Origin: Vulcanimicrobiota bacterium
GTDB lineage: Bacteria; Vulcanimicrobiota; Xenobia; Xenobiales; JADMJV01
Length of the DNA: 64,000 bases
NCBI GenBank assembly: GCA_019637395.1
Contig: JAHBVR010000017.1
Location: 62,001-126,000 of the forward strand
Direction: 5' to 3'
Shown here: piece by piece, positions 12,690 to 28,306 of the stretch
Layout of the letters: each line of letters opens with the position of its first letter
Position numbering within the stretch: the stretch's first letter is position 1
Translations under genes and position numbers: made by a program
Notes under the pieces: generated by a model
Seen by the model: the letters and a program-made list of their open reading frames with translations, nothing else
What the model was told of the DNA's origin: nothing
The model's database searches: none

Positions 12690-12838
12690 GCTTCTTCACG
12701 CAAGTCGATTTGGCTTTTGATACTGGATCGAGTGCTCTGCCTGACTGAGCTACCACCTTGCGGTGGGCGGGATTTGAACCCGCGACTTCCCGGTTAACTG
12801 GAGTATGTATGCCAAGATCTGTTGGGGCGCGAGGAAAC
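12690..12838 (-). ncRNA. Permuted tRNA-mimic RNA, copy B (YrlA-like Y RNA candidate)
   Basis: Read on the minus strand, a lower helix (TCGCGC at 12832-12827 with GCGTGA at 12701-12696) and a second helix (TTGGC at 12815-12811 with GCCAA at 12714-12710) carry a tRNA-like domain in permuted order. The T arm GCGGG-TTCAAAT-CCCGC (12783-12767) comes first. A short acceptor stem CCACC/GGTGG closed by a GCAA tetraloop follows (12766-12753), then TA and a D arm GCTC/GAGC with GG in its loop. The CTCG/CGGG anticodon-like stem and a 5-nt variable loop fit too. T8, A14, G15-C48, G18G19 and TTC are all present. This fits the bacterial Y RNA tRNA-mimic class. Ends are approximate. Confidence 0.7.
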
Positions 12839-12844
12839 GCTCGG

Positions 12845-12990
12845 TGTCTTTCGCGTAAGTCGATGCGGCTTGTTTTAGGTGCTCTACCAGACTGAGCTAC
12901 AGTCTTGCGACTGGCGGGATTTGAACCCGCGACCACCCGCCCCCTAAGCGTATGTAAGCCGTACCAGTCGGGACGCGACCGACTCGCAGA
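12845..12990 (-). ncRNA. Permuted tRNA-mimic RNA, copy A (YrlA-like Y RNA candidate)
   Basis: Same architecture as copy B. Lower helix: TCGCGT (12978-12973) with ACGCGA (12856-12851). Next helix: CGGCTT (12961-12956) with AAGCCG (12871-12866). Then TTAGG/CCTAA (12947-12943 with 12879-12875). T arm: GCGGG-TTCAAAT-CCCGC (12930-12914). Acceptor stem: CAGTC-GCAA-GACTG (12913-12900). D arm: GCTC-AGTCTGGTA-GAGC. Base pairs change together between the copies (for example TCGCGT/ACGCGA versus TCGCGC/GCGTGA), while ATCGACTT in the internal loop is kept in both. The acceptor stem has no free 3' end, so it cannot be an ordinary tRNA. No Ro60 (TROVE) gene is in the window. Confidence 0.72.
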
Positions 12991-14256: not shown

Positions 14257-14715
14257 ATGCATTTTTTGCCCCTGCTGCTGATTCCTGTTTTTCTGTGGAT
14301 TGCGCTCAAGGCCAGGCGCTATGGTCTGTTCGCCGAGGTGCCCGTCGACCCGGAAGCTCGGATCACTTACTGGGCCAGCCAGGCGCTGGCTCAGTTGAAG
14401 GTGGAGCTGGCGGTGGCCCGCGAGTTGCGCCTGGAAGAGCAGCAGCTCCGCTATCGCAAGGGCAAGACCGAGGGGCGCATTTTTAGCGCCCAGGGTCATC
14501 TGTATAAGCAGGAAGGCGCGGCCGCGCGCGAGAGCCTGGGCGAGATCGGCCCGGACGGGGGGGTGACCTTCCTGTCCGAACCCGGCCTGCTGCACGTCAG
14601 CATCCTGGCCAAAGACGGTGAATTGAGCCGGTACCTGGAAGTGAGCCTGCCGGTGGCCGGGGGAGGAAGGGGTGGGGGACAGCAGAAGTCCGCTCCGCTG
14701 GAGGCCCCCCTTTGA
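14257..14715 (+). CDS. Single-pass membrane protein of unknown function
   Basis: The first 17 residues are a membrane anchor (MHFLPLLLIPVFLWIAL), followed by a 130-residue mainly polar domain. I recognise no family. The stop TGA overlaps the TTG start of tolC, so it is the first gene of the efflux operon and may be an accessory of that pump; this is inferred from position only. Confidence 0.65.
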   Translation: MHFLPLLLIPVFLWIALKARRYGLFAEVPVDPEARITYWASQALAQLKVELAVARELRLEEQQLRYRKGKTEGRIFSAQGHLYKQEGAAARESLGEIGPDGGVTFLSEPGLLHVSILAKDGELSRYLEVSLPVAGGGRGGGQQKSAPLEAPL

Positions 14716-16040
14716 AGAAATTACAAGTTGCAGCCGGGCTGATTCTCTCAACCACTCTGGCTTTCGCCGATCCCGCGCCCGTCCTGACGCTCAACCAGGC
14801 TCTGCAAATGGCCTCCGGGCGCAACCTGCAGGTGCTGGCCAGCGGCAAAGAAGTGGAGCGCCAGAATTCCATCTGGGACGCCAACGCGGCCACCCGTTTG
14901 CCGAAAATCGCCATGGAGGCTCGCCACACCCGGCTGCTCACGCCCATCAGCTTCAATGTCGACCCGGGCACGCTGGGCAATTTCCCCGGCATCGGACCGA
15001 TTCCGGCCCAGCCGGTGTCCATCAGCAACGTGGGCGGATCGCAAAACAGCATTCAATTGACGGTGACGCAACCGTTGACCCAGCTGCACAAGATCACCCT
15101 GGGACTGGAAGCGCAAGAGCAAGCCATCGAGGACGCCACCCAAAAAAATCGCGGAGATTCCATCCACGTGGCCGTCCAGGTGCAGGACGCCTACCTGAGT
15201 CTGGTGGATACCCAGAATGCCCTGGTGGCCGCCAGGGATTCCCTGGAATTCACCCAGGAGATGGAACGCGTCACCCAGGAATACTTGAAAGAGAAGACGG
15301 TGTTAAAGGCCGACCTTCTCGACGTGCAAACTTCGCGGGCCGAGCAGGAGGCCCAACTGGCCACGCTGCAGCGCACCTACCAGACCCAAAAAGAACAGCT
15401 CAATTATTTGTTGGCCCGGGATTTGAACACCGATTTCACGGTGCAGATGCCCACCATCTCCCGGGAGGTCAGCCAGACCATCACCGAGTTGGAGGCACAG
15501 GCGCAAGCACAGCGGCCCGACCTGGCCCAGGCTCGGGCTCGTTTGAAGCAGGCTTTGATCAATACGGAGATCGCCCGGGCCGCCTACATCCCCGATGTGG
15601 GCGTGCAGTTCGGCTATTTGCACAACGGCAACAGCGGCCTGTTGCCAGGGACCTATCTGACGGTGGCGCTGGTGGCCACCTGGGATATTTTTGACTGGGG
15701 CGGGCGCGAGGCCAACGTGCGGGCCAGGGCCCAGCAGGCCGAGGAAATCAGTCTGCAGACCGAGGATGCCAGGCAACGGGCGGCCCTGGAGGTGGCTCAG
15801 AAGTTTCGCGCCGTGGAAAATCTGCGTGCTCTGGAAGCGGCCAAGAAGCTGCAGGTGGAGGCGGCCGAGGAACACCACCGCGTGGCCCTGGCCCAATATC
15901 AGGTCAAAGCCACGCTGGCTTCGGAAGTTTTGAATACCCAGGCCAAGCTTTCTTCGGCGCGGCGGGATTATCAAAAGTGGCAGATCGACCTGGCCCAGAG
16001 CGTGGCCGAACTTTATCAGGCGGTAGGACAAGCACCATGA
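14712..16040 (+). CDS. TolC-family outer membrane efflux protein
   Basis: A TTG start gives MKKLQVAAGLILSTTLAFA, a signal peptide, then a 420-residue protein with two repeated halves rich in long helices (LNQALQMASGRNLQV, ARLKQALINTEIARAAY) as in TolC/OprM proteins. It forms the outer-membrane exit duct for the adaptor and RND pump encoded next; all three genes overlap by 1 to 4 bases. Confidence 0.93.
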   Translation: MKKLQVAAGLILSTTLAFADPAPVLTLNQALQMASGRNLQVLASGKEVERQNSIWDANAATRLPKIAMEARHTRLLTPISFNVDPGTLGNFPGIGPIPAQPVSISNVGGSQNSIQLTVTQPLTQLHKITLGLEAQEQAIEDATQKNRGDSIHVAVQVQDAYLSLVDTQNALVAARDSLEFTQEMERVTQEYLKEKTVLKADLLDVQTSRAEQEAQLATLQRTYQTQKEQLNYLLARDLNTDFTVQMPTISREVSQTITELEAQAQAQRPDLAQARARLKQALINTEIARAAYIPDVGVQFGYLHNGNSGLLPGTYLTVALVATWDIFDWGGREANVRARAQQAEEISLQTEDARQRAALEVAQKFRAVENLRALEAAKKLQVEAAEEHHRVALAQYQVKATLASEVLNTQAKLSSARRDYQKWQIDLAQSVAELYQAVGQAP

Positions 16041-17488
16041 AACTTGCGCACGGGATTTTACTGGGTTTCCTCCTGGGGGGGTGCGCGGGCGCGCCGAGTA
16101 CTCCCGGCGGGACGTCGGCTCCGGCGGCGGCTCCGCTGGTGGTGACCCAAATGGTGAAGACGACCACTCGCCAGGGAGGCGAGCGTTTTTCGGCCACGGT
16201 GGAGCCGGATACCCGGGTCAACCTTACTTTCAACTCGGGTGGTTATGTCACGGCCATCCGCCAGTTGCCGGGTAAGGGCGGCGTGCACATCCTGGGCGCC
16301 GGCGACCGCGTCAAGAAAGGTGAGATTCTGGCCGAGCTGCGCAATCTGGAATATCGGGCCAAAGTGAACGAAGCCGAATCTTCGCTGGGGCAGTCTCTGG
16401 CCGGTGAGAGCGACGCTCAGGCCAGCGTGGAACTGGCCCGGGCCCAGACTCGCCAGTCGCGGGCGCTGGTCGAGCAGGCTTTGCAGGCCGAAGTTCAGGC
16501 GGGGGCCCAGGTGCGCGAGGCCGAGGCGGCCCTTGGCGCCAGCCAGGCTCAGCTTTTTGAAGCTCAGGCTCAGTTGAGCAAGTCTCAGGCTGACTGGGAA
16601 CGGGCCCAAAACTTGATGCAGGCCAGCAGCTTGACGCAGCCTGATTTTGACTCGGCCAAACTGGCCTGGGCCACCGCTCAGGGCAAGCTCAAAGAGGCCG
16701 AGCAACAGGTGCGCGGCAACAACGCCAAATTGACCGAGGCCAAAGCCAACGTGGTGGCCGCGCGGGCCCGGGTGGACCAGACCCAAGGCCAGGTGGACGC
16801 CAGCCTGGCCCAGGAAAATCGTGCTCAGGCGGGCGTGGATTCGGCTCGGGCGCGCACGCTGGGGTCTCGTTCCAATGTGGAGCAGGCCACCGTGGCTCTA
16901 GGCGATATCTACTTGAAAGCCCCCATGAATGGGGTGATTTTGACCCGTTCCGTGGAAGTGGGAGCGCAGGTGGGACCGGGCACGGTGGGATTTGCCATGG
17001 CCGACACCCACCACGTGCTGGTCACTTTCGGCGTGCCCGACATTCTGGTGCGCGACCTCAAGCTGGGCCAGCGGTTGGACATTAAGTGCGAGGCTCTGCC
17101 GGGCCGGGCTTTTGAAGGCACCATCCGTACCATCGCTCCCGAAGCCGACGCCGACAGTCGGGTCTACAAAGTGGAAGTGCGCGTGGACAACTCCAAAGAT
17201 GTGCTCAAGGTCGGCATGATTGCCTCGCTCGACCTGGTCAATAAAGAAGATTCGCCGCGCTCCATCATCGCCGTTCCGCTGGGTGCCTTGATGCCCAACA
17301 AGGAGCAGGAGGACGCCTATCAGGTCTTCGTGATCAAAGGTGACAAGGCCAGGCTCCGCGATGTTACGGTGGGCCGGGCTTCGGGCGACCAGATGGAGAT
17401 TACCTCGGGCCTGGAAGAGGGCGAGCAGATCGTGGTGGAAGGCGGCAATCGAGTCAACGACGGCCAGACCGTCAAGGTCAAGTCCTGA
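16037..17488 (+). CDS. RND efflux periplasmic adaptor lipoprotein
   Basis: ATG 16037 overlaps the tolC stop. The signal peptide ends in a lipobox (LLGGC), so the mature protein is lipid-anchored. A lipoyl/barrel-sandwich half (GDRVKKGEILAELRNLEY) is followed by an unusually long Ala/Gln-rich coiled-coil hairpin of about 170 residues, the second lipoyl half (YLKAPMNGVILTRSVEVG) and beta-barrel plus membrane-proximal domains. It bridges pump and TolC duct. The substrate is not inferable. Confidence 0.93.
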   Translation: MKLAHGILLGFLLGGCAGAPSTPGGTSAPAAAPLVVTQMVKTTTRQGGERFSATVEPDTRVNLTFNSGGYVTAIRQLPGKGGVHILGAGDRVKKGEILAELRNLEYRAKVNEAESSLGQSLAGESDAQASVELARAQTRQSRALVEQALQAEVQAGAQVREAEAALGASQAQLFEAQAQLSKSQADWERAQNLMQASSLTQPDFDSAKLAWATAQGKLKEAEQQVRGNNAKLTEAKANVVAARARVDQTQGQVDASLAQENRAQAGVDSARARTLGSRSNVEQATVALGDIYLKAPMNGVILTRSVEVGAQVGPGTVGFAMADTHHVLVTFGVPDILVRDLKLGQRLDIKCEALPGRAFEGTIRTIAPEADADSRVYKVEVRVDNSKDVLKVGMIASLDLVNKEDSPRSIIAVPLGALMPNKEQEDAYQVFVIKGDKARLRDVTVGRASGDQMEITSGLEEGEQIVVEGGNRVNDGQTVKVKS

Positions 17489-20400
17489 TGTCGCACGGCA
17501 AGTCAGACCAGCAATACATCGATACCGTCCATAATCTTTCGCGCTTCTGCCTGGAGTTTCGCTCCATTTGCTGGCTGGGCCTGATCATGAGCATGCTCTG
17601 GGGCTGGTACGGTTATCACAAAATGCCCCAGCGCAAAGATCCCGACGTGCCGGTGCGCAAAGCCAAGATCATGACGCCCTGGCCGGGCAACAGCGCCCAG
17701 AAAGTCGAGCAACTGGTCAGCCGCAAAATCGAAGAAACGCTGGCTCAAAACAACCTGCTGGCCAAGGTGGAGTCGACCTCCACTCCCGGTCTCTCGGAAA
17801 TTACCATCGAAATCGATGAGAATCGCGGCGACGACCCGGTCAAGGTCTGGACCGACATCAAGATCAAACTGGACAAGATCACGGACCTGCCCGAAGGAGC
17901 CGGTCCCATCAACTTCAACACCGATTTCGGCGATACGCTGGCGCTGATGTTGACGGTGGCCAGTCCGCAGTATTCCAAAGAGGAAGTGGCTCGCATCGGC
18001 AAGCCCATCCAGGGCGAGCTGGCGGCCGCCCGGGCCAGCTATCAAAAGCCCGGGCAAAAGCGGGCCACGCTGCTCTACCTCTTTGCCAAGCAACAGAGTC
18101 TGTTTCTGGTGCGTCAGGCTTTCGATCGCCTGTTTTCCATGGGGGAAGCCCAGGAGGTCTTCCACGATGCGCACATCATCGAGGGAGAAGACTACATCGC
18201 CATCGATTTCGCTACCGACAGGGACGACAAGGGCATCATGTCCTTCGTCCAGCTGTTCGTGGAGGAGAACATCAAGGTGGCCGAGATTCACCCGGACGCC
18301 TGGCAGCCGGTGGTGGTGCGCGATCCGGCGGGAACCATCGAGGCGCTGCAGTCGGTGGCCGGAGACAAGTATTCTTACCGCGACCTGGACAACTACACGG
18401 AAGCCATCGAGGAACGCCTGCGGGCGGTGCCCTCGGCCACCAAGGTGGATCGAGTGGGCGTGCTGGCTGAGCGCATTTTTCTGGCCTACAGTCAGGAACG
18501 CCTGGCTTCCTACGGCATGAGCGTGGCCGGTCTGGCCAATATTCTTAAGGCGCGCAACATCAGCGGCGCCTCCGGCACGCAGGAGACGAACCAGGGCACG
18601 GAAGTGCGCATCAACACAGCCGGCGAGTTCACTTCGGAGAAGCAGATCGGCGATGTGGTGGTCACGCAGAGCAACGGCAATCCCGTCTACCTGCGCGACC
18701 TGGTCAACGTCATCCGAGCCTACGATTCGCCCCCGCGTTTCCTGACCTTTTTGACCTCCAAGGACAAAAACGGAAAATGGATTCGCTCGCGCGCCAATAT
18801 CGTCACGGTTCAGATGAAACCTGGCTTAAATATCAATCATTTTGGCACAGAGGTCGACGCCGCTCTGGCGGACGTTAAAAAGGATATCCCCGACGACCTG
18901 ATCATCGTGAAAACCTCCGACCAGCCTCAGCAGGTGCGCGAGTCGGTCGGCCTTTTCAACAAGTGTCTGGAAGAAGCCGTGGTGCTGGTGGTGGTGGTCT
19001 CCTGGATCGGTTTTTGGGAATGGCGTTCGGCGCTGTTGATGGCGCTGGCCATTCCCATCACGCTGGCCATGACCTTCGCCTTCATGTTCATGCTCCACCT
19101 GGACATCCAGCAGGTCTCGGTGGCTTCGCTGATCATCGCGCTGGGGCTGCTGGTGGATGATCCGGTGGTGGCCGGCGACGCCATCAAACATTCGCTGGCC
19201 GCCGGGCACGATCGCAAGACGGCGGCCTGGCTGGGCCCGACCAGGCTGGCCACGGCCATTCTTTACGCCACCATCACCAACATCGTGGCCTATCTGCCGC
19301 TTATGTTGATCGAGGGCGACACCGGGCGCTTCCTGTATAGCTTGCCGCTGGTGATCGCCTGCTCGCTGGTGGCCTCGCGCATTTCCTCGATGACGTTCAT
19401 TCCGCTGCTGGGCTACTACATCTTGCGTCCGGTGGCCGAACCGGGCCCGGAGGTGCTGCGCACCCGGGCTCCCTACAAGTGGTACTACAATCTGGCCGGC
19501 TGGTGCGTGGATCACCGCTGGAAGGTGCTGCTGACCTCGTTCTTGATTCTGGCCGCCGGCCTGGTGATGGCCAGGCAGTTGAAGACGCAGTTTTTCCCCA
19601 AAGACCTGCAGTACATGTTCTTCTCCAACAACTATCTGCCCTCGGATAAGACGCTGCGGGCCACCGACGAGAAGACCAAAGAGATCGAAAAGGTCATGTT
19701 GGAGAACATTCCCAACGACAAGTTAAGTTTCTTGACCACTTTCGATGGCGGCGGCGCGCCGCGCTTCTGGTCCACGCTGGACCCGGAGTCGCCCAAACTG
19801 AACTTCTCCATGGTGGTGGTGACGGTCAATGACAAGCACATCACCCCCAGCCTGGTGGGTCCGGTCGACCGCGGTCTGACCGAGAACGTGGCCGGAGTGC
19901 TGGCCGACGTGCGCCAGCTAGAGTCAGGCAAACCGGTGGGCACGCCCGTTTCGGTTACCCTGTATGGCCGTGAAGACGACATGCTGGGCCTGCAAAAGGC
20001 GGCTCAGAAGGTCAAGGAACTTTTGCTTACGGTGCCGGGCTCGGCGCGCATTCGCGACAGTTGGGGTGAGTCGCTCATGACTCTGGACGTCCAGATCGAT
20101 GCCGACCGGGCCAATCTGGCCGGGCTCACCAATTCCGACGTGGCTCAATCGATGGCGGCCGCCCTCAACGGCCAGACGCTGACCAACCTGCGCGAGGGCC
20201 ATCGTTTGATTCCCATCACGGCCCGCATGCGCATGGACGAGCGCACTCAGATTCAGAATTTGAAGAACCTCTACGTCTATTCGCAGGACGGCAAAAAGAA
20301 AGTGCGCCTGGACCAGGTGGCCACCGTGAAAATGGTGATGCAGCCTCAGACCATCGGGCGCGAAAACTACCACCGCGCTATCGACGTGGGCTGCTTCACC

Positions 20401-21174
20401 ACCGAAGGCGTGCTGGCGTCCGAGGTCTTCAAAGAATTCGAACCCAAGATGAAGGAGCTGACGGCCGAGTTCGCCGCCCAGGGAATCACCTGGGAAGTGG
20501 GCGGCGAGGCCAAGGAACAGCGCTCCGGCTTCGTCAACCTGGCGGTGGTGCTGTTGATTTCGGTGACCATGATTTACATCGCGCTGCTCTCGCAGTTCAA
20601 GAACGTGGTCAAGCCGCTGGTGGTCTTCGCCGCCATTCCTTACGGCATGGTCGGGGCCATCGGAGGTCTCTGGTTGATGAAGGCGCCTTTCGGGTTCATG
20701 GCTTTCCTGGGCTGCGCTTCGCTGGTGGGCGTGATCGTATCACACGTGATCGTGCTCTTTGACTACATCGAAGAGATGCACGCTCACGGCGAAGATATGC
20801 GCGATTCCCTGCTGCATGCGGGAATCGCGCGTTTGCGCCCGGTGTTTATTACCGTGGGTGCGACCGTGATCGCCCTGTTCCCGCTGGCCAAAAGCGGCGG
20901 TCCGCTGTGGGAGCCGCTCTGCTATACTCAAATCGGCGGTCTGATGGTGGCCACCATGGTGACGCTGGTCCTGGTGCCGGTGATTTATACCATCTGTGTG
21001 CGCGACCTCAAAGTGCTACACTGGGAGACAGCGGCGCCCGAGGCGTTGCCGGCCGCGCCCGAGCCGGTAGCGGCGGTGGCTCCCCCCGAGGAGCCGGTGG
21101 CGGCCCTCGAAGCGCCCGCGAAGGAGGAGAAGGATGAAGAAAATAGCCATGGCCCTGCTGCTGGCGGGGTGTAG
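17488..21174 (+). CDS. RND efflux pump inner-membrane permease
   Basis: The 1228-residue product is longer than AcrB (1049). It has the usual twelve membrane segments and two large periplasmic loops. The proton-relay pair D557-D558 is in GLLVDDPVV. The long N-terminal part and a 50-residue Pro/Ala/Glu-rich cytosolic tail explain most of the excess length. The periplasmic loop sequences do not let me separate metal, drug or lipid substrates. The 3' end overlaps the start of the thioredoxin-like lipoprotein gene by 41 bases, which ties that gene to the pump operon. Confidence 0.93.
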   Translation: MSHGKSDQQYIDTVHNLSRFCLEFRSICWLGLIMSMLWGWYGYHKMPQRKDPDVPVRKAKIMTPWPGNSAQKVEQLVSRKIEETLAQNNLLAKVESTSTPGLSEITIEIDENRGDDPVKVWTDIKIKLDKITDLPEGAGPINFNTDFGDTLALMLTVASPQYSKEEVARIGKPIQGELAAARASYQKPGQKRATLLYLFAKQQSLFLVRQAFDRLFSMGEAQEVFHDAHIIEGEDYIAIDFATDRDDKGIMSFVQLFVEENIKVAEIHPDAWQPVVVRDPAGTIEALQSVAGDKYSYRDLDNYTEAIEERLRAVPSATKVDRVGVLAERIFLAYSQERLASYGMSVAGLANILKARNISGASGTQETNQGTEVRINTAGEFTSEKQIGDVVVTQSNGNPVYLRDLVNVIRAYDSPPRFLTFLTSKDKNGKWIRSRANIVTVQMKPGLNINHFGTEVDAALADVKKDIPDDLIIVKTSDQPQQVRESVGLFNKCLEEAVVLVVVVSWIGFWEWRSALLMALAIPITLAMTFAFMFMLHLDIQQVSVASLIIALGLLVDDPVVAGDAIKHSLAAGHDRKTAAWLGPTRLATAILYATITNIVAYLPLMLIEGDTGRFLYSLPLVIACSLVASRISSMTFIPLLGYYILRPVAEPGPEVLRTRAPYKWYYNLAGWCVDHRWKVLLTSFLILAAGLVMARQLKTQFFPKDLQYMFFSNNYLPSDKTLRATDEKTKEIEKVMLENIPNDKLSFLTTFDGGGAPRFWSTLDPESPKLNFSMVVVTVNDKHITPSLVGPVDRGLTENVAGVLADVRQLESGKPVGTPVSVTLYGREDDMLGLQKAAQKVKELLLTVPGSARIRDSWGESLMTLDVQIDADRANLAGLTNSDVAQSMAAALNGQTLTNLREGHRLIPITARMRMDERTQIQNLKNLYVYSQDGKKKVRLDQVATVKMVMQPQTIGRENYHRAIDVGCFTTEGVLASEVFKEFEPKMKELTAEFAAQGITWEVGGEAKEQRSGFVNLAVVLLISVTMIYIALLSQFKNVVKPLVVFAAIPYGMVGAIGGLWLMKAPFGFMAFLGCASLVGVIVSHVIVLFDYIEEMHAHGEDMRDSLLHAGIARLRPVFITVGATVIALFPLAKSGGPLWEPLCYTQIGGLMVATMVTLVLVPVIYTICVRDLKVLHWETAAPEALPAAPEPVAAVAPPEEPVAALEAPAKEEKDEENSHGPAAGGV

Positions 21175-21517
21175 TCAGACTGGTCCTACGGTTAAACTGG
21201 ATCACAACTCGCGCACGCTGGGGCTGAAGACCTCGCCGGTGCGGGTGGTGCACTACAGCGCCACCTGGTGAGGCGCCTGCCGCACTATGGCGGCCGATTG
21301 GGCTCAGTTCGAGTCCACCTACCAGAAGAAAGCGGAGATCGTCTACATCAACGTGGACCAGCGTTCGTCTCCCGAGTTTACCAAGTATGCGCGCTTCGCG
21401 CCCCGGGGGATTCCCTACACGCTCTGGCTGGATCGCCAGGATAAGCCGCTGGCCGATCAGACCGGGCCGATGTCGGCGGCCGAGATGGGCCAGACCACCG
21501 AGAAATTCCTCAAATGA
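21134..21517 (+). CDS. Thioredoxin-like lipoprotein, probable selenoprotein (TGA at residue 46)
   Basis: ATG 21134 has an excellent ribosome site (AAGGAGG, 21121-21127). The start MKKIAMALLLAGC is a lipoprotein signal with Cys13 as lipid site. In frame, HYSATW is followed by TGA (21269-21271) and then GACRTM; downstream the thioredoxin cis-Pro loop reads RGIPYTLWLD, and the frame closes at 21517. In thioredoxins the motif is W-C-G-P-C-R, so the TGA sits exactly at the first catalytic Cys. The simplest reading is selenocysteine in a U-x-x-C centre. A nonsense mutation or sequencing error (TGC or TGT to TGA) is the alternative. The predicted length is 127 residues. Confidence 0.75.
21279..21294 (+). 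promoter_or_regulatory. Possible SECIS-like hairpin just after the TGA codon
   Basis: GCCGC (21279-21283) can pair with GCGGC (21290-21294) around a six-base loop, starting 7 bases after the TGA. Bacterial SECIS hairpins lie at about this distance inside the coding sequence. The stem is short and the apical loop lacks an obvious GU, so this is only a candidate. Confidence 0.35.
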
Positions 21518-22718
21518 TGTCCAGCCTTTCCAAGGCTTCTTCGCGACCTTCCGAGTCCTGGCGGGTGAGGCGGTAGCGACCCGGCGGGAGGAGCAGCACG
21601 GCGGCGGGCGTGCCGGCCTGGACCAGCAGCCGATCGAGGGCGATGGGGTTGACCGTTTCGTCCTCTTGGTAGGCCTGCAGCAGGGCGGTGCCCTTTTGGG
21701 GCAGCCACTCGGGCTTGACCGGAACATCCTGGCGGTAGCCGTTGAGGCGCATCCACTGGGGTCGCCCGTTCACTTCGCGACTGGGCGGATGGGCCACCTG
21801 AAGATCCACCTGGCCCTCATAGGGGCCGTAGACGGGATGCTTTTGCTGGTCGTCTTCCAGAATGATAGGCTTTTCCAGGTTGGCTCGCAGGGCTTTGTAG
21901 GCCGGATATTCATTGTCGGGATGGGAGTGCTCGACCAGCGTGGTCTGGTCGATGGTGAGCGGGTCCAGGCCGGATTTCCTGGCCAGGCGCGCGGCCATCC
22001 ATTCCAGCCGGCCGCTCTCGGTGGCATGGCTATACCCCACGTAGATAAGCAATTTTTGGCCGGGGTGCCTTTTTAACACCCGGTCCATGAGGTGATTGGC
22101 TTGAGCCTCTTCGCGGCTGTTGATCGACTCGTCCACGCTCTGGTTGGGCGGGCTCTCCTCCTGTTCGTAATTGATGGGCCGGTAGCCGAGTTGGAAACTC
22201 CGGCGCACGAAGTCGGCGAAGAAGGGATCGATGAGATAATAGCCGGCGCGCCGATTGGGATAGCCGTATTCATGGATGGCGAAGATGTCGCCGGAGAACG
22301 TCTCGGCGGCCAGCAACGGGAACTTCAGACGCTCGGCCACCAGTTGGGCGAAGGCGCGCGACTGCGAGGAGTAGTGGGCTTCATTGAGGATCACGATCTG
22401 GTGTTTTTGAGCTTCTTCGGCGATGACGTCCAGAGCGTCGCGCTGGCGCAGGCCGGTCAGGTCGGCGGCCGGTCTGTGGGAGTTGGGCTGAACCGGGTCG
22501 TTGTAGAGAATGGCCTCCCGGTAGGCTCCCACGAAGGGGGCGAACTGGCTGACTTCCGAACGCAGATCGGGGAACTTGCGCACCCCCTCGAGCAGCAGGT
22601 TCCAGGCCTTGAGGTAGTGCCCGGCCGAGCGCTCGCGGTAGGCGGCCTGGCTGATCTCGGCCCGGCTCTGAGCCAGGGCGGGGAGGGTGAGCAGCAAGAG
22701 GGCGGCTAGGTTGCGCAT
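21510..22718 (-). CDS. Secreted ChaN/EreA-like protein
   Basis: ATG 22718 gives MRNLAALLLLTLPALAQ, a signal peptide, and a 402-residue product. The block IVILNEAHYSSQSRAFAQLV, then LLAAETF and a late YVGYSHATE, resembles the erythromycin-esterase/ChaN/TraB-like superfamily, where Glu and His residues on these strands form the active or metal-binding site. The actual function is unclear. The start overlaps the end of the small HAD gene by 13 bases, and the 3' end overlaps the thioredoxin-like gene by 8. Motif copy at 22045 codes LLIY. Confidence 0.65.
   Translation of the reverse strand: MRNLAALLLLTLPALAQSRAEISQAAYRERSAGHYLKAWNLLLEGVRKFPDLRSEVSQFAPFVGAYREAILYNDPVQPNSHRPAADLTGLRQRDALDVIAEEAQKHQIVILNEAHYSSQSRAFAQLVAERLKFPLLAAETFSGDIFAIHEYGYPNRRAGYYLIDPFFADFVRRSFQLGYRPINYEQEESPPNQSVDESINSREEAQANHLMDRVLKRHPGQKLLIYVGYSHATESGRLEWMAARLARKSGLDPLTIDQTTLVEHSHPDNEYPAYKALRANLEKPIILEDDQQKHPVYGPYEGQVDLQVAHPPSREVNGRPQWMRLNGYRQDVPVKPEWLPQKGTALLQAYQEDETVNPIALDRLLVQAGTPAAVLLLPPGRYRLTRQDSEGREEALERLDII
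22045..22053 (-). repeat. WATTGCTTAT motif copy in the ChaN/EreA-like gene
   Basis: Read as Leu-Leu-Ile-Tyr in the gene. Confidence 0.85.
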
Positions 22719-22975
22719 CGTTGCAAGAGCTCCTCTCCCGGAGTAGAGCGGCATTCGTTGGGGTGCGGTTTGGGAAGATAAGCAATAAAGCACTCGGCCA
22801 GTCCGGCTTCGGTGGCCACTCGGCGGGCGTAGTCGGCGCCGCCGGAACTCCAGCAATAGAGGGTGGCGCCGGCTTGTTGGAGCTGGCGGACGTAGTCCTG
22901 AGTAGCACTCATGGCGATCTGCTTGGAGCCGAAGCTGCGCACCAGGGTGTCGTCCACGTCGACATAGATAATCAT
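22706..22975 (-). CDS. Small HAD-superfamily phosphatase-like protein
   Basis: The 89-residue protein starts MIIYVDVDDTLVRSFGS, a HAD motif I (DxDxT), and has a motif II-like CWSSGG. It is much shorter than most HAD enzymes (no cap, no full motif IV), like the minimal polynucleotide-phosphatase-like members. It lies between two membrane or secreted genes in one operon. The motif copy at 22778 encodes IAY here. Confidence 0.7.
   Translation of the reverse strand: MIIYVDVDDTLVRSFGSKQIAMSATQDYVRQLQQAGATLYCWSSGGADYARRVATEAGLAECFIAYLPKPHPNECRSTPGEELLQRCAT
22778..22786 (-). repeat. WATTGCTTAT motif copy in the small HAD gene
   Basis: Read as ATT GCT TAT (Ile-Ala-Tyr) and extended by CTTCC. Confidence 0.85.
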
Positions 22976-26707: not shown

Positions 26708-26831
26708 TCTTTTTACTTTGGGCCAACTGGCAGAGTTCCTTGAGATTGGCCTGCCGGTGCAGAAGTCCGGGATTGGCGCCCCTGCCCACAAGGAGCCGTG
26801 TCTTTGACCTGAACACGTGCAGGAGTTCCGT

Positions 26832-27566
26832 ATGTCCATCCCAAAAATGCCGACTGTACCTATTGGTACAGATTTAGGAGTGAACTGGGATATGGCATTG
26901 CCGAAGCGAAAAGTCCATTTGATCGTCGAAGAAATGGGAGAGGAGACGCTGGTTTACTGCACGCTGGTTAAGAAGGCGTTTTGTCTGAACCCCGTCTGCG
27001 CCAAGGTTTTCGCGCTTTGCGATGGGACGCATAGCCCGGCTGAAATCGCCTCGGAGCTGGCTCTGGAAGAGAATACGGTCATCAATAGTCTGGCTGTCCT
27101 GGGGGAACACGTTCTGCTAGAGCCTCTAGAAGCCGTAAAGCGCCGGCAGATTCTCAAAGGGGGGGCGGTGTTGATACCGGCTGTGTTGGCAGTGTCCGCT
27201 CCCGAGCCCAGTACGGCCGCCTCTGTGCCAGGTGGCTGCATTACCAATATTCAGTGTGGCGCCAAACCCGGCTTCGTGAATAGTTGTCAGCCCTGCGACT
27301 TCGACAACGGGGCTGTGCCCGATTGTGCTCCATGGCCCAATTCTTATTGCATGAGCGCCTGGAGAGTCCGGGAGGATGCAGCCGGTAATCCGTTTCCGCT
27401 GGATACTTGCGTCAACGATAGCCAGGCCACGGGATTCGTCAATCAATGTGACTTCGTCAATCCGAGCAACATCTGGGCCCTGGACTGCAATGCCGCTCGT
27501 GCCGCCGTCATTGCCGCCGGCAAACCGTTTGCCGTGTATCGTTGCTGCAATTGCCCCGGACGGTGA
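26832..27566 (+). CDS. PqqD-domain protein with internal Tat-like signal and Cys-rich tail
   Basis: A CAGGAG site precedes ATG 26832; a GTG at 26817 is also possible. Residues 20-100 form a PqqD-like fold (ALCDGTHSPAEIASEL and EENTVINSLAVLGEHVLL), the peptide-binding element used in RiPP maturation. Next comes RRQILKGGAVLIPAVLAVSA, which matches a twin-arginine signal (RRxFLK-type) but sits in the middle of the protein. The last 110 residues hold 12 Cys. The GTG of the HprK-like gene overlaps the stop. A maturation or export role for the Cys-rich tail is inference only. Confidence 0.7.
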   Translation: MSIPKMPTVPIGTDLGVNWDMALPKRKVHLIVEEMGEETLVYCTLVKKAFCLNPVCAKVFALCDGTHSPAEIASELALEENTVINSLAVLGEHVLLEPLEAVKRRQILKGGAVLIPAVLAVSAPEPSTAASVPGGCITNIQCGAKPGFVNSCQPCDFDNGAVPDCAPWPNSYCMSAWRVREDAAGNPFPLDTCVNDSQATGFVNQCDFVNPSNIWALDCNAARAAVIAAGKPFAVYRCCNCPGR

Positions 27567-28306
27567 GCGAGAGCCGCAGTTGGCGGGGCTGGGGCGTACA
27601 GATTCAGGTCGATGGTCCCGCGGCTTTGCTGGAGGGGCTTGCTTACCAGGTTCCGCCCTGCGGGGTCTTTTGTCATCCCGTCGACTCACCTACCGTGCGC
27701 TTCGAATGGGATGCTCTCCGTCACTTCTGGGTTCGCTATCCGGATGAAGAATGTGTTCTCGACTTGGAGAGCGCCCTGGCTTTGGAAGTGGCTACACATT
27801 CGCCTCAGTGCTTGTTCGTTCATGCGGGCACCGTGCGTTATCGGGGAAGAGCCCTGGTGATTCCCGGAGTCAGCCGGGCCGGCAAATCCACTTTGGTGGA
27901 GGCGCTGGTGCGCCGGGGAACGACCTACTATTCCGATGAGTATGCGGTGTTTCATCCCGATGGCCGGGTGTTGCCTTACCCGAGGAAGCTCTCGCTGCGG
28001 GCCACGCCGGAGCGTCCTCAGGGTTTGTCCAGGCAGCCGGAAAGTCTGGGCTGGGAACCTCAGATGGGGCCGATTCCGCTGGGCTGGATACTGGATTGCC
28101 GCTACACCGGGCGCCACGACCTGCAGTCCATCAGCCCCGGAGAAAGCCTGCTATCGTTGTTCGCTAACGCGGTGGCGGCCCGGAGTCGAGCCAAGGCGCT
28201 CTTTCACAGTCTCTCCAAGGCCCTGGACGGGGTGTCCGCGTTGCGCGGCGTGAGGGCTGAGGCGGATGACGCGGCTGCCTGGATCATGGACTGGCTGAAG
28301 GCTTGA
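27563..28306 (+). CDS. HPr-kinase-like (HprK-related) P-loop kinase
   Basis: The GTG at 27563 overlaps the previous TGA. A Walker A PGVSRAGKSTL at about residues 109-119 lies after an N-terminal half with beta strands, the layout of HprK-related kinases in RiPP, lasso-peptide and PqqD clusters. The family phosphorylates Ser/Thr on partner proteins or peptides. No PTS genes are present, so catabolite control of HPr is unlikely. The obvious partner is the PqqD-domain Cys-rich protein directly upstream. A third gene at 28432 completes the group. Confidence 0.78.
   Translation: MSESRSWRGWGVQIQVDGPAALLEGLAYQVPPCGVFCHPVDSPTVRFEWDALRHFWVRYPDEECVLDLESALALEVATHSPQCLFVHAGTVRYRGRALVIPGVSRAGKSTLVEALVRRGTTYYSDEYAVFHPDGRVLPYPRKLSLRATPERPQGLSRQPESLGWEPQMGPIPLGWILDCRYTGRHDLQSISPGESLLSLFANAVAARSRAKALFHSLSKALDGVSALRGVRAEADDAAAWIMDWLKA

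Follow-up and report, generated by a model that had tools for sequence, protein, structure and literature searches.

The question raised by this locus is whether a TGA codon lying inside a thioredoxin-like gene, next to genes for an RND efflux pump, is read as selenocysteine (Sec), and whether the product has a role connected with the pump. The window, which is the whole stretch of 64,000 nucleotides analyzed, carries this gene at 21134-21517 on the plus strand, and a first-pass annotation had proposed that it encodes a new selenoprotein, a thioredoxin-like lipoprotein coupled to the pump. The open reading frame translates as MKKIAMALLLAGCSQTG...VVHYSATW-TGA-GACRTMAADWAQFESTY...RGIPYTLW...EKFLK-TGA, and its N-terminus (MKKIAMALLLAGCSQ) includes the lipobox LAGC. 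The features of the gene are the following, with the evidence in brackets:

21123-21129, plus strand: probable ribosome-binding site GGAGGAG, 4 nt upstream of the ATG (sequence)
21134-21517, plus strand: predicted selenoprotein gene, thioredoxin-like lipoprotein of 127 amino acids with Sec46 (sequence, PF00085, orthologues, dN/dS)
21134-21172, plus strand: short lipoprotein-type signal MKKIAMALLLAG-C13, lipobox LAGC (sequence; kept in both orthologues)
21269-21271, plus strand: in-frame UGA, putative selenocysteine 46, which opens the UxxC pair (comparative evidence)
21278-21280, plus strand: codon of Cys49, partner of Sec46 (sequence, alignment)
21299-21317, plus strand: candidate bacterial SECIS hairpin UGGGCUC-AGUUC-GAGUCCA, apical loop at 21306-21310 (folding, covariation, PMC13188914 criteria)
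21413-21415, plus strand: cis-Pro codon, Pro94 in GIPYT (invariant in the alignment)

The TGA is codon 46 and occupies, in frame, the position of the first catalytic Cys of the thioredoxin domain (SATW-U-GAC-RTM, with the cis-Pro in IPYTLW), as the first-pass annotation had stated. The remainder of the domain was found intact, with GIPYTLW present and a PF00085 match that spans the TGA (residues 34-120, 40.3 bits against a cut-off of 23.5, E 3e-10, Pfam). An AlphaFold2 model (pLDDT 84), for which three relatives were used with the window protein, has the thioredoxin fold, and its best PDB matches are the classical E. coli thioredoxins. Among the NCBIfam equivalogs for TrxA/TrxC (TIGR01068, NF006898, NF008229) the best score was 37.4 bits, below the cut-off of 96.8. 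The ribosome site noticed earlier was also located, and the lipoprotein signal stood up to comparison: the pattern [LVI]-x-[GAS]-C is present as LAGC in the window gene and in the orthologue from genome G002, and as LAGC after LAVAIL in that from G001. This signal was judged by eye and has a short h-region, with 12 residues before Cys13; the thioredoxin is probably anchored in the membrane by a lipid, a lipidation predicted from sequence only. The stop codon of the gene (21515-21517) is TGA as well, so the same codon would serve for Sec and for termination within one gene; the two orthologues terminate with other stops.

The host genome has what selenocysteine insertion needs. In the assembly that contains the window (7.66 Mb, 97.9% complete), profile searches detected selB (402 bits, cut-off 242), selA (467 bits) and selD (359 bits), the last two above their curated cut-offs, and selD, selA and selB are adjacent on contig C34 (235257-239461, minus strand). 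A tRNA-Sec (selC) is located on contig C2 (62.4 bits, gathering score 47), and it was called by ARAGORN as SeC with anticodon TCA. The complete set selA, selB, selC and selD is therefore present, and because selB and the tRNA-Sec were found, the objection anticipated in the first-pass annotation, a genome lacking selB or selC, does not apply. The selA match in G001 (G001:C21:69523-70815) contains one in-frame TGA, and a short selA fragment in G002:C587 likewise has an in-frame TGA.

Orthologues of the window gene in G001 (82% identical) and G002 (84% identical) keep the TGA at the same column. For the codons downstream of the TGA, dN/dS was 0.14 (G002) and 0.08 (G001), low values which indicate that this part is under purifying selection. 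Including paralogues, 18 thioredoxin-type genes carry TGA at the first-Cys column, distributed over nine of the 18 class genomes (G000-G006, G015 and G017), and their active sites are W-U-G-A-C, W-U-G-S-C, W-U-P-A-C or W-U-G-P-C. In the alignment proposed as a check, column 46 is Cys in other homologues of the same class. The selA gene was found in 14 of the 18 genomes, among them all nine with TGA thioredoxins, and no TGA thioredoxin was found in the four genomes without selA (G007, G008, G009 and G014); the association gives a one-sided Fisher value of about 0.04, computed by hand and for genomes that are related. Neither TAA nor TAG was found inside the thioredoxin matches listed for the class genomes.

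A chance placement of the stop had been considered unlikely, and the placement is indeed far beyond chance, the same column being TGA in the 18 class genes. The combined pattern of TGA, CxxC and hairpin has a single occurrence in the window and none in 100 shuffles. A DNA pattern scan over 84,980 species gave 17 matches, eight of them in-frame thioredoxins, all of this class, and the other nine out of frame or without a thioredoxin; since the pattern fixes one SECIS sequence, the scan is not a general survey of Sec-thioredoxins.

The region downstream of the UGA, for which a SECIS search had been suggested, contains the hairpin 21299-21317. This hairpin agrees with the four published criteria for bacterial SECIS elements, which are loop and stem size, loop G, spacing from the UGA and free energy (PMC13188914): the apical loop has 5 nt (range 3-9) and the upper stem 7 bp (range 4-16), the loop AGUUC has G at the second of its first two positions, followed by U, the distance from the UGA to the apical loop is 34 nt (range 16-37), and the free energy is -9.9 kcal/mol (at most -7.5). 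Of the 13 genes in the first comparison, 12 share its core CTCAGTTYGAG unchanged; in the thirteenth (G002c, L051) the amino acids are changed and the hairpin reads GGCCC-AGGUU-GGGCC. In five more paralogues the stems differ and lie in another register, about 9-10 nt nearer to the UGA: GGUCCUC-AGUUA-GAGGACC in one paralogue, GGCGCCC-AGGUU-GGACGCC, with one C-A mismatch, in two genes, GGCCCCC-AGUUU-GGAGGCC, also with one C-A mismatch, and AGCCCGU-CGUGC-ACGGGCU. The two registers fall in different amino-acid contexts, and the hairpin is therefore not explained by conservation of the protein. When the 15 distinct hairpins were aligned, 94% of the cells paired, whereas shuffles reached 65% and slid controls no more than 49%; compensatory double changes occupied 30 cells versus 8.8 in shuffles. 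The hairpins had been trimmed around the loop manually beforehand, a step that biases these figures somewhat toward the structure. Between G000 (the genome of the window) and G002 there are no codon changes in the first 15 codons after the TGA and 30 in the next 65 (p 0.0003).

A local-hairpin score evaluated by synonymous resampling gave a combined p of about 3e-10 for the 18 Sec genes versus 0.35 for seven Cys homologues, a value that is not a true probability because the genes are related. For single genes, p exceeded 0.1 in four Sec genes, the top-scoring hairpin of G015a and G002c was different from the SECIS hairpin, and the window gene alone gave a modest p of 0.04. With the whole 63 nt after the TGA folded against synonymous resampling, p was 0.11 for the window gene, and Sec and Cys homologues overlapped. 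An Rfam search of the hairpin region gave no relevant match. The hairpin 21299-21317 is supported as a candidate SelB-binding SECIS element, and Sec decoding at codon 46 is strongly supported by the comparative data; the proposal of a Sec-containing thioredoxin-like lipoprotein is thus backed by the Sec machinery, the conservation of the TGA, the Cys of the homologues and the covarying hairpin.

The genes that precede the thioredoxin gene in its operon are the following, all on the plus strand:

14257-14715, plus strand: g14257, at the head of the operon; protein of 152 amino acids whose N-terminal part includes a hydrophobic segment (operon position; no Pfam or NCBIfam match)
14712-16040, plus strand: TolC-type outer-membrane efflux protein (PF02321, 144.9 bits)
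15977-17488, plus strand: RND periplasmic adaptor, start as listed for the open reading frame, a later ATG being likely (TIGR01730, 206.6 bits, above cut-off)
17488-21174, plus strand: RND permease of the thioredoxin operon (PF00873, 480 bits)

No NCBIfam model of an RND subfamily matched the permease at cut-off. The flanking gene 21510-22856, on the minus strand, has no Pfam or NCBIfam match.

These five genes (g14257, TolC-type protein, adaptor, permease and thioredoxin) form a tight operon in the window, where the permease gene shares its last 41 nt with the thioredoxin gene, and G001 has the same gene order, again with overlapping genes. In G002 the thioredoxin gene lies directly downstream of g14257, with the pump genes absent between them; this junction, without a gap, looks genuine, although the contig has only 3.4 kb. 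The g14257-outer membrane protein-adaptor-RND operon of G003 (RND 87%) is followed by a different gene instead of the thioredoxin, and in G006, G015 and G017 the thioredoxin is absent downstream of the RND operons. The adjacency to the pump is thus kept in two of the three species with the gene and in two of the six genomes that encode a full-length pump relative. Regarding the earlier claim of an RND-coupled protein, the gene does adjoin a pump in G000 and G001, but this linkage is not conserved in the other five genomes mentioned, and an obligate pump-thioredoxin unit was rejected on this synteny. The thioredoxin is a frequent, non-obligate member of the operon, and it is adjacency, in two species, that suggests a possible coupling. 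The idea that g14257 is a client of the thioredoxin was dropped because the window version of this protein has no Cys.

The explanation that best joins these data, and which is considered highly probable as a whole, is a Sec-thioredoxin produced by SECIS decoding, lipid-anchored in the envelope, acting in disulfide reduction and recharged by DsbD. The hairpin 21299-21317 would recruit SelB and Sec-tRNA-Sec, so that the UGA at codon 46 would be decoded as selenocysteine. Judging from the short conserved lipobox signal, the protein would be exported by the Sec route and, after cleavage and lipidation at Cys13, would stay outside the cytoplasm as an anchored protein of the cell envelope. The UxxC motif, the cis-Pro and the fold suggest that the Sec46/Cys49 pair would act as thiol-disulfide reductant for oxidized envelope proteins or small molecules. 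Recharging would be carried out by a transmembrane reductase of the DsbD type; such a protein, full-length (713-aa frame), is encoded on contig C1 of the genome, with a Cys-containing N-terminal domain, DsbD_TM and a C-terminal WCINC domain. The thioredoxin may serve the machinery of its operon, that is, the membrane protein g14257 and, in some species, the RND efflux pump.

Other readings of the codon fare poorly. If the UGA were a true stop, as TGA is in the standard code, the gene would yield a lipopeptide of 45 residues, with a further product starting at the in-frame ATG six codons downstream (Met52), or the broken domain would represent a pseudogene or a sequencing error. This is very improbable: translation from Met52 would give a product with neither the active site nor the first strands of the fold, and purifying selection acts on the codons after the TGA. 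The same TGA appears in independent assemblies of other species, on which grounds a pseudogene or sequencing error was rejected. Insertion of Trp, Cys or Arg, by way of a suppressor tRNA or a code change, would also leave the frame open, but it was rejected because TGA terminates this gene too, as well as most of its neighbors (12 of the 21 genes reviewed in the window part, this one included). The complete Sec machinery, the covarying hairpin with bSECIS geometry and the lack of TGA thioredoxins in relatives without selA also oppose this possibility, which has almost nothing left to recommend it.

With Sec accepted at codon 46, the alternatives concern the task of the protein. Selenium raises reactivity toward soft metals and peroxides, and the protein could serve mainly to bind or detoxify metals, metalloids or peroxide in the envelope instead of reducing disulfides in general. 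Metal or metalloid resistance, implicated for most transporter-related selenoproteins (PMC13188914), is consistent with this function and also with the thioredoxin being a functional part of the pump, which would keep thiols of the pump or adaptor reduced, or would reduce an exported compound (metal, metalloid or disulfide). Detoxification is nevertheless unlikely, because no metal-resistance gene was recognized adjacent to the thioredoxin gene and the active site retains the classical W-x-x-x-C and cis-Pro layout of thioredoxins. A functional part of the pump would fit the operon order and the overlapping genes of the window and G001, but the arrangement in G002 and the four genomes whose pumps have no thioredoxin downstream make it rather improbable. 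The Sec-dependent envelope reductant is preferred to both.

As to novelty, selenoproteins of the UxxC thioredoxin type (PF00085) already form an established family (PMC13188914), with Trx selenoproteins described in Geobacter, Anaeromyxobacter, Carboxydothermus and Treponema denticola (PMC1794560) and in Sargasso Sea data (PMC1088965); the kind of protein is therefore not new, which qualifies the original claim, while the lineage, the lipid anchor and the number of paralogues are distinctive. The window protein, as deduced from its sequence, has the features of that family: PF00085, Sec at the first and Cys at the second catalytic position, a SECIS candidate just downstream, Cys homologues and a host with selA, selB, selC and selD. 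It differs in the lipoprotein-type signal, the RND-pump operon and the Eremiobacterota lineage with several class paralogues. SaoT (NF040730), a thioredoxin-like selenoprotein listed for the Sao transporter set (PMC13188914), is also UxxC, its transporter tie being taken from the name and listing of the set. However, Sao is an ABC transporter set, and NF040730 is absent from the NCBIfam matches of the window protein. Thioredoxins of the TlpA/ResA/CcmG kind are membrane-anchored in the envelope and recharged by DsbD/CcdA. They offer a working analogy for the window protein, which differs from them in that its best family and fold matches are classical thioredoxins and Sec would replace the first Cys.

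Other Sec-thioredoxins of the class (L103-L107, L023, L028, L031 and L051), which may represent further unreported selenoprotein families, were also observed; several carry an additional region at the N-terminus, such as FxGxV...ELQALxxALG...MGSIDV. Lipoprotein-like signals are found at the start of two of the class proteins (G005b and G017b), and six have an extra N-terminal extracytoplasmic region (G003b, G004c, G005, G006, G002c and G017). It is a tentative suggestion, on balance doubtful, that the class has built a Sec-based envelope redox system, composed of several lipid-anchored, secreted and domain-fused Sec-thioredoxin families, each with its own SECIS, in two registers, and one of them serving an export operon.

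These data document the probable use of selenocysteine in Eremiobacterota, a little-studied and mostly uncultured phylum; a literature search of incomplete coverage retrieved no paper in which Eremiobacterota are mentioned alongside selenocysteine or selenoprotein. About 18 Sec-thioredoxin genes are added, of a type that routine annotation likely cuts at the UGA. With Sec and Cys homologues side by side and strongly covarying hairpins that occupy two registers, the set is well suited to work on SECIS models and to the question of why envelope thioredoxins gain selenium.

Two further regions of the window were noticed. Tandem matches to YrlA (Y RNA-like, RF02553) were found on the minus strand at 12862-12962 (46.4 bits, E 3.5e-9) and 12727-12791 (37.6 bits, E 1.2e-6), both below the gathering score of 69. 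ARAGORN called no tRNA at either match, and the usual Y RNA partner, a TROVE/Rsr protein (PF05731), was not found in the genome; the matches could be diverged Y-like RNAs, tRNA-mimic RNAs or tRNA remnants. The protein encoded by 26817-27566 has no Pfam match; its N-terminal half resembles PqqD and its tail is rich in Cys. This gene is followed by an HPr-kinase-like ATPase gene (27542-28306) and a small gene, all judged by eye; the region 26817-28306 is possibly a peptide-modification cluster.
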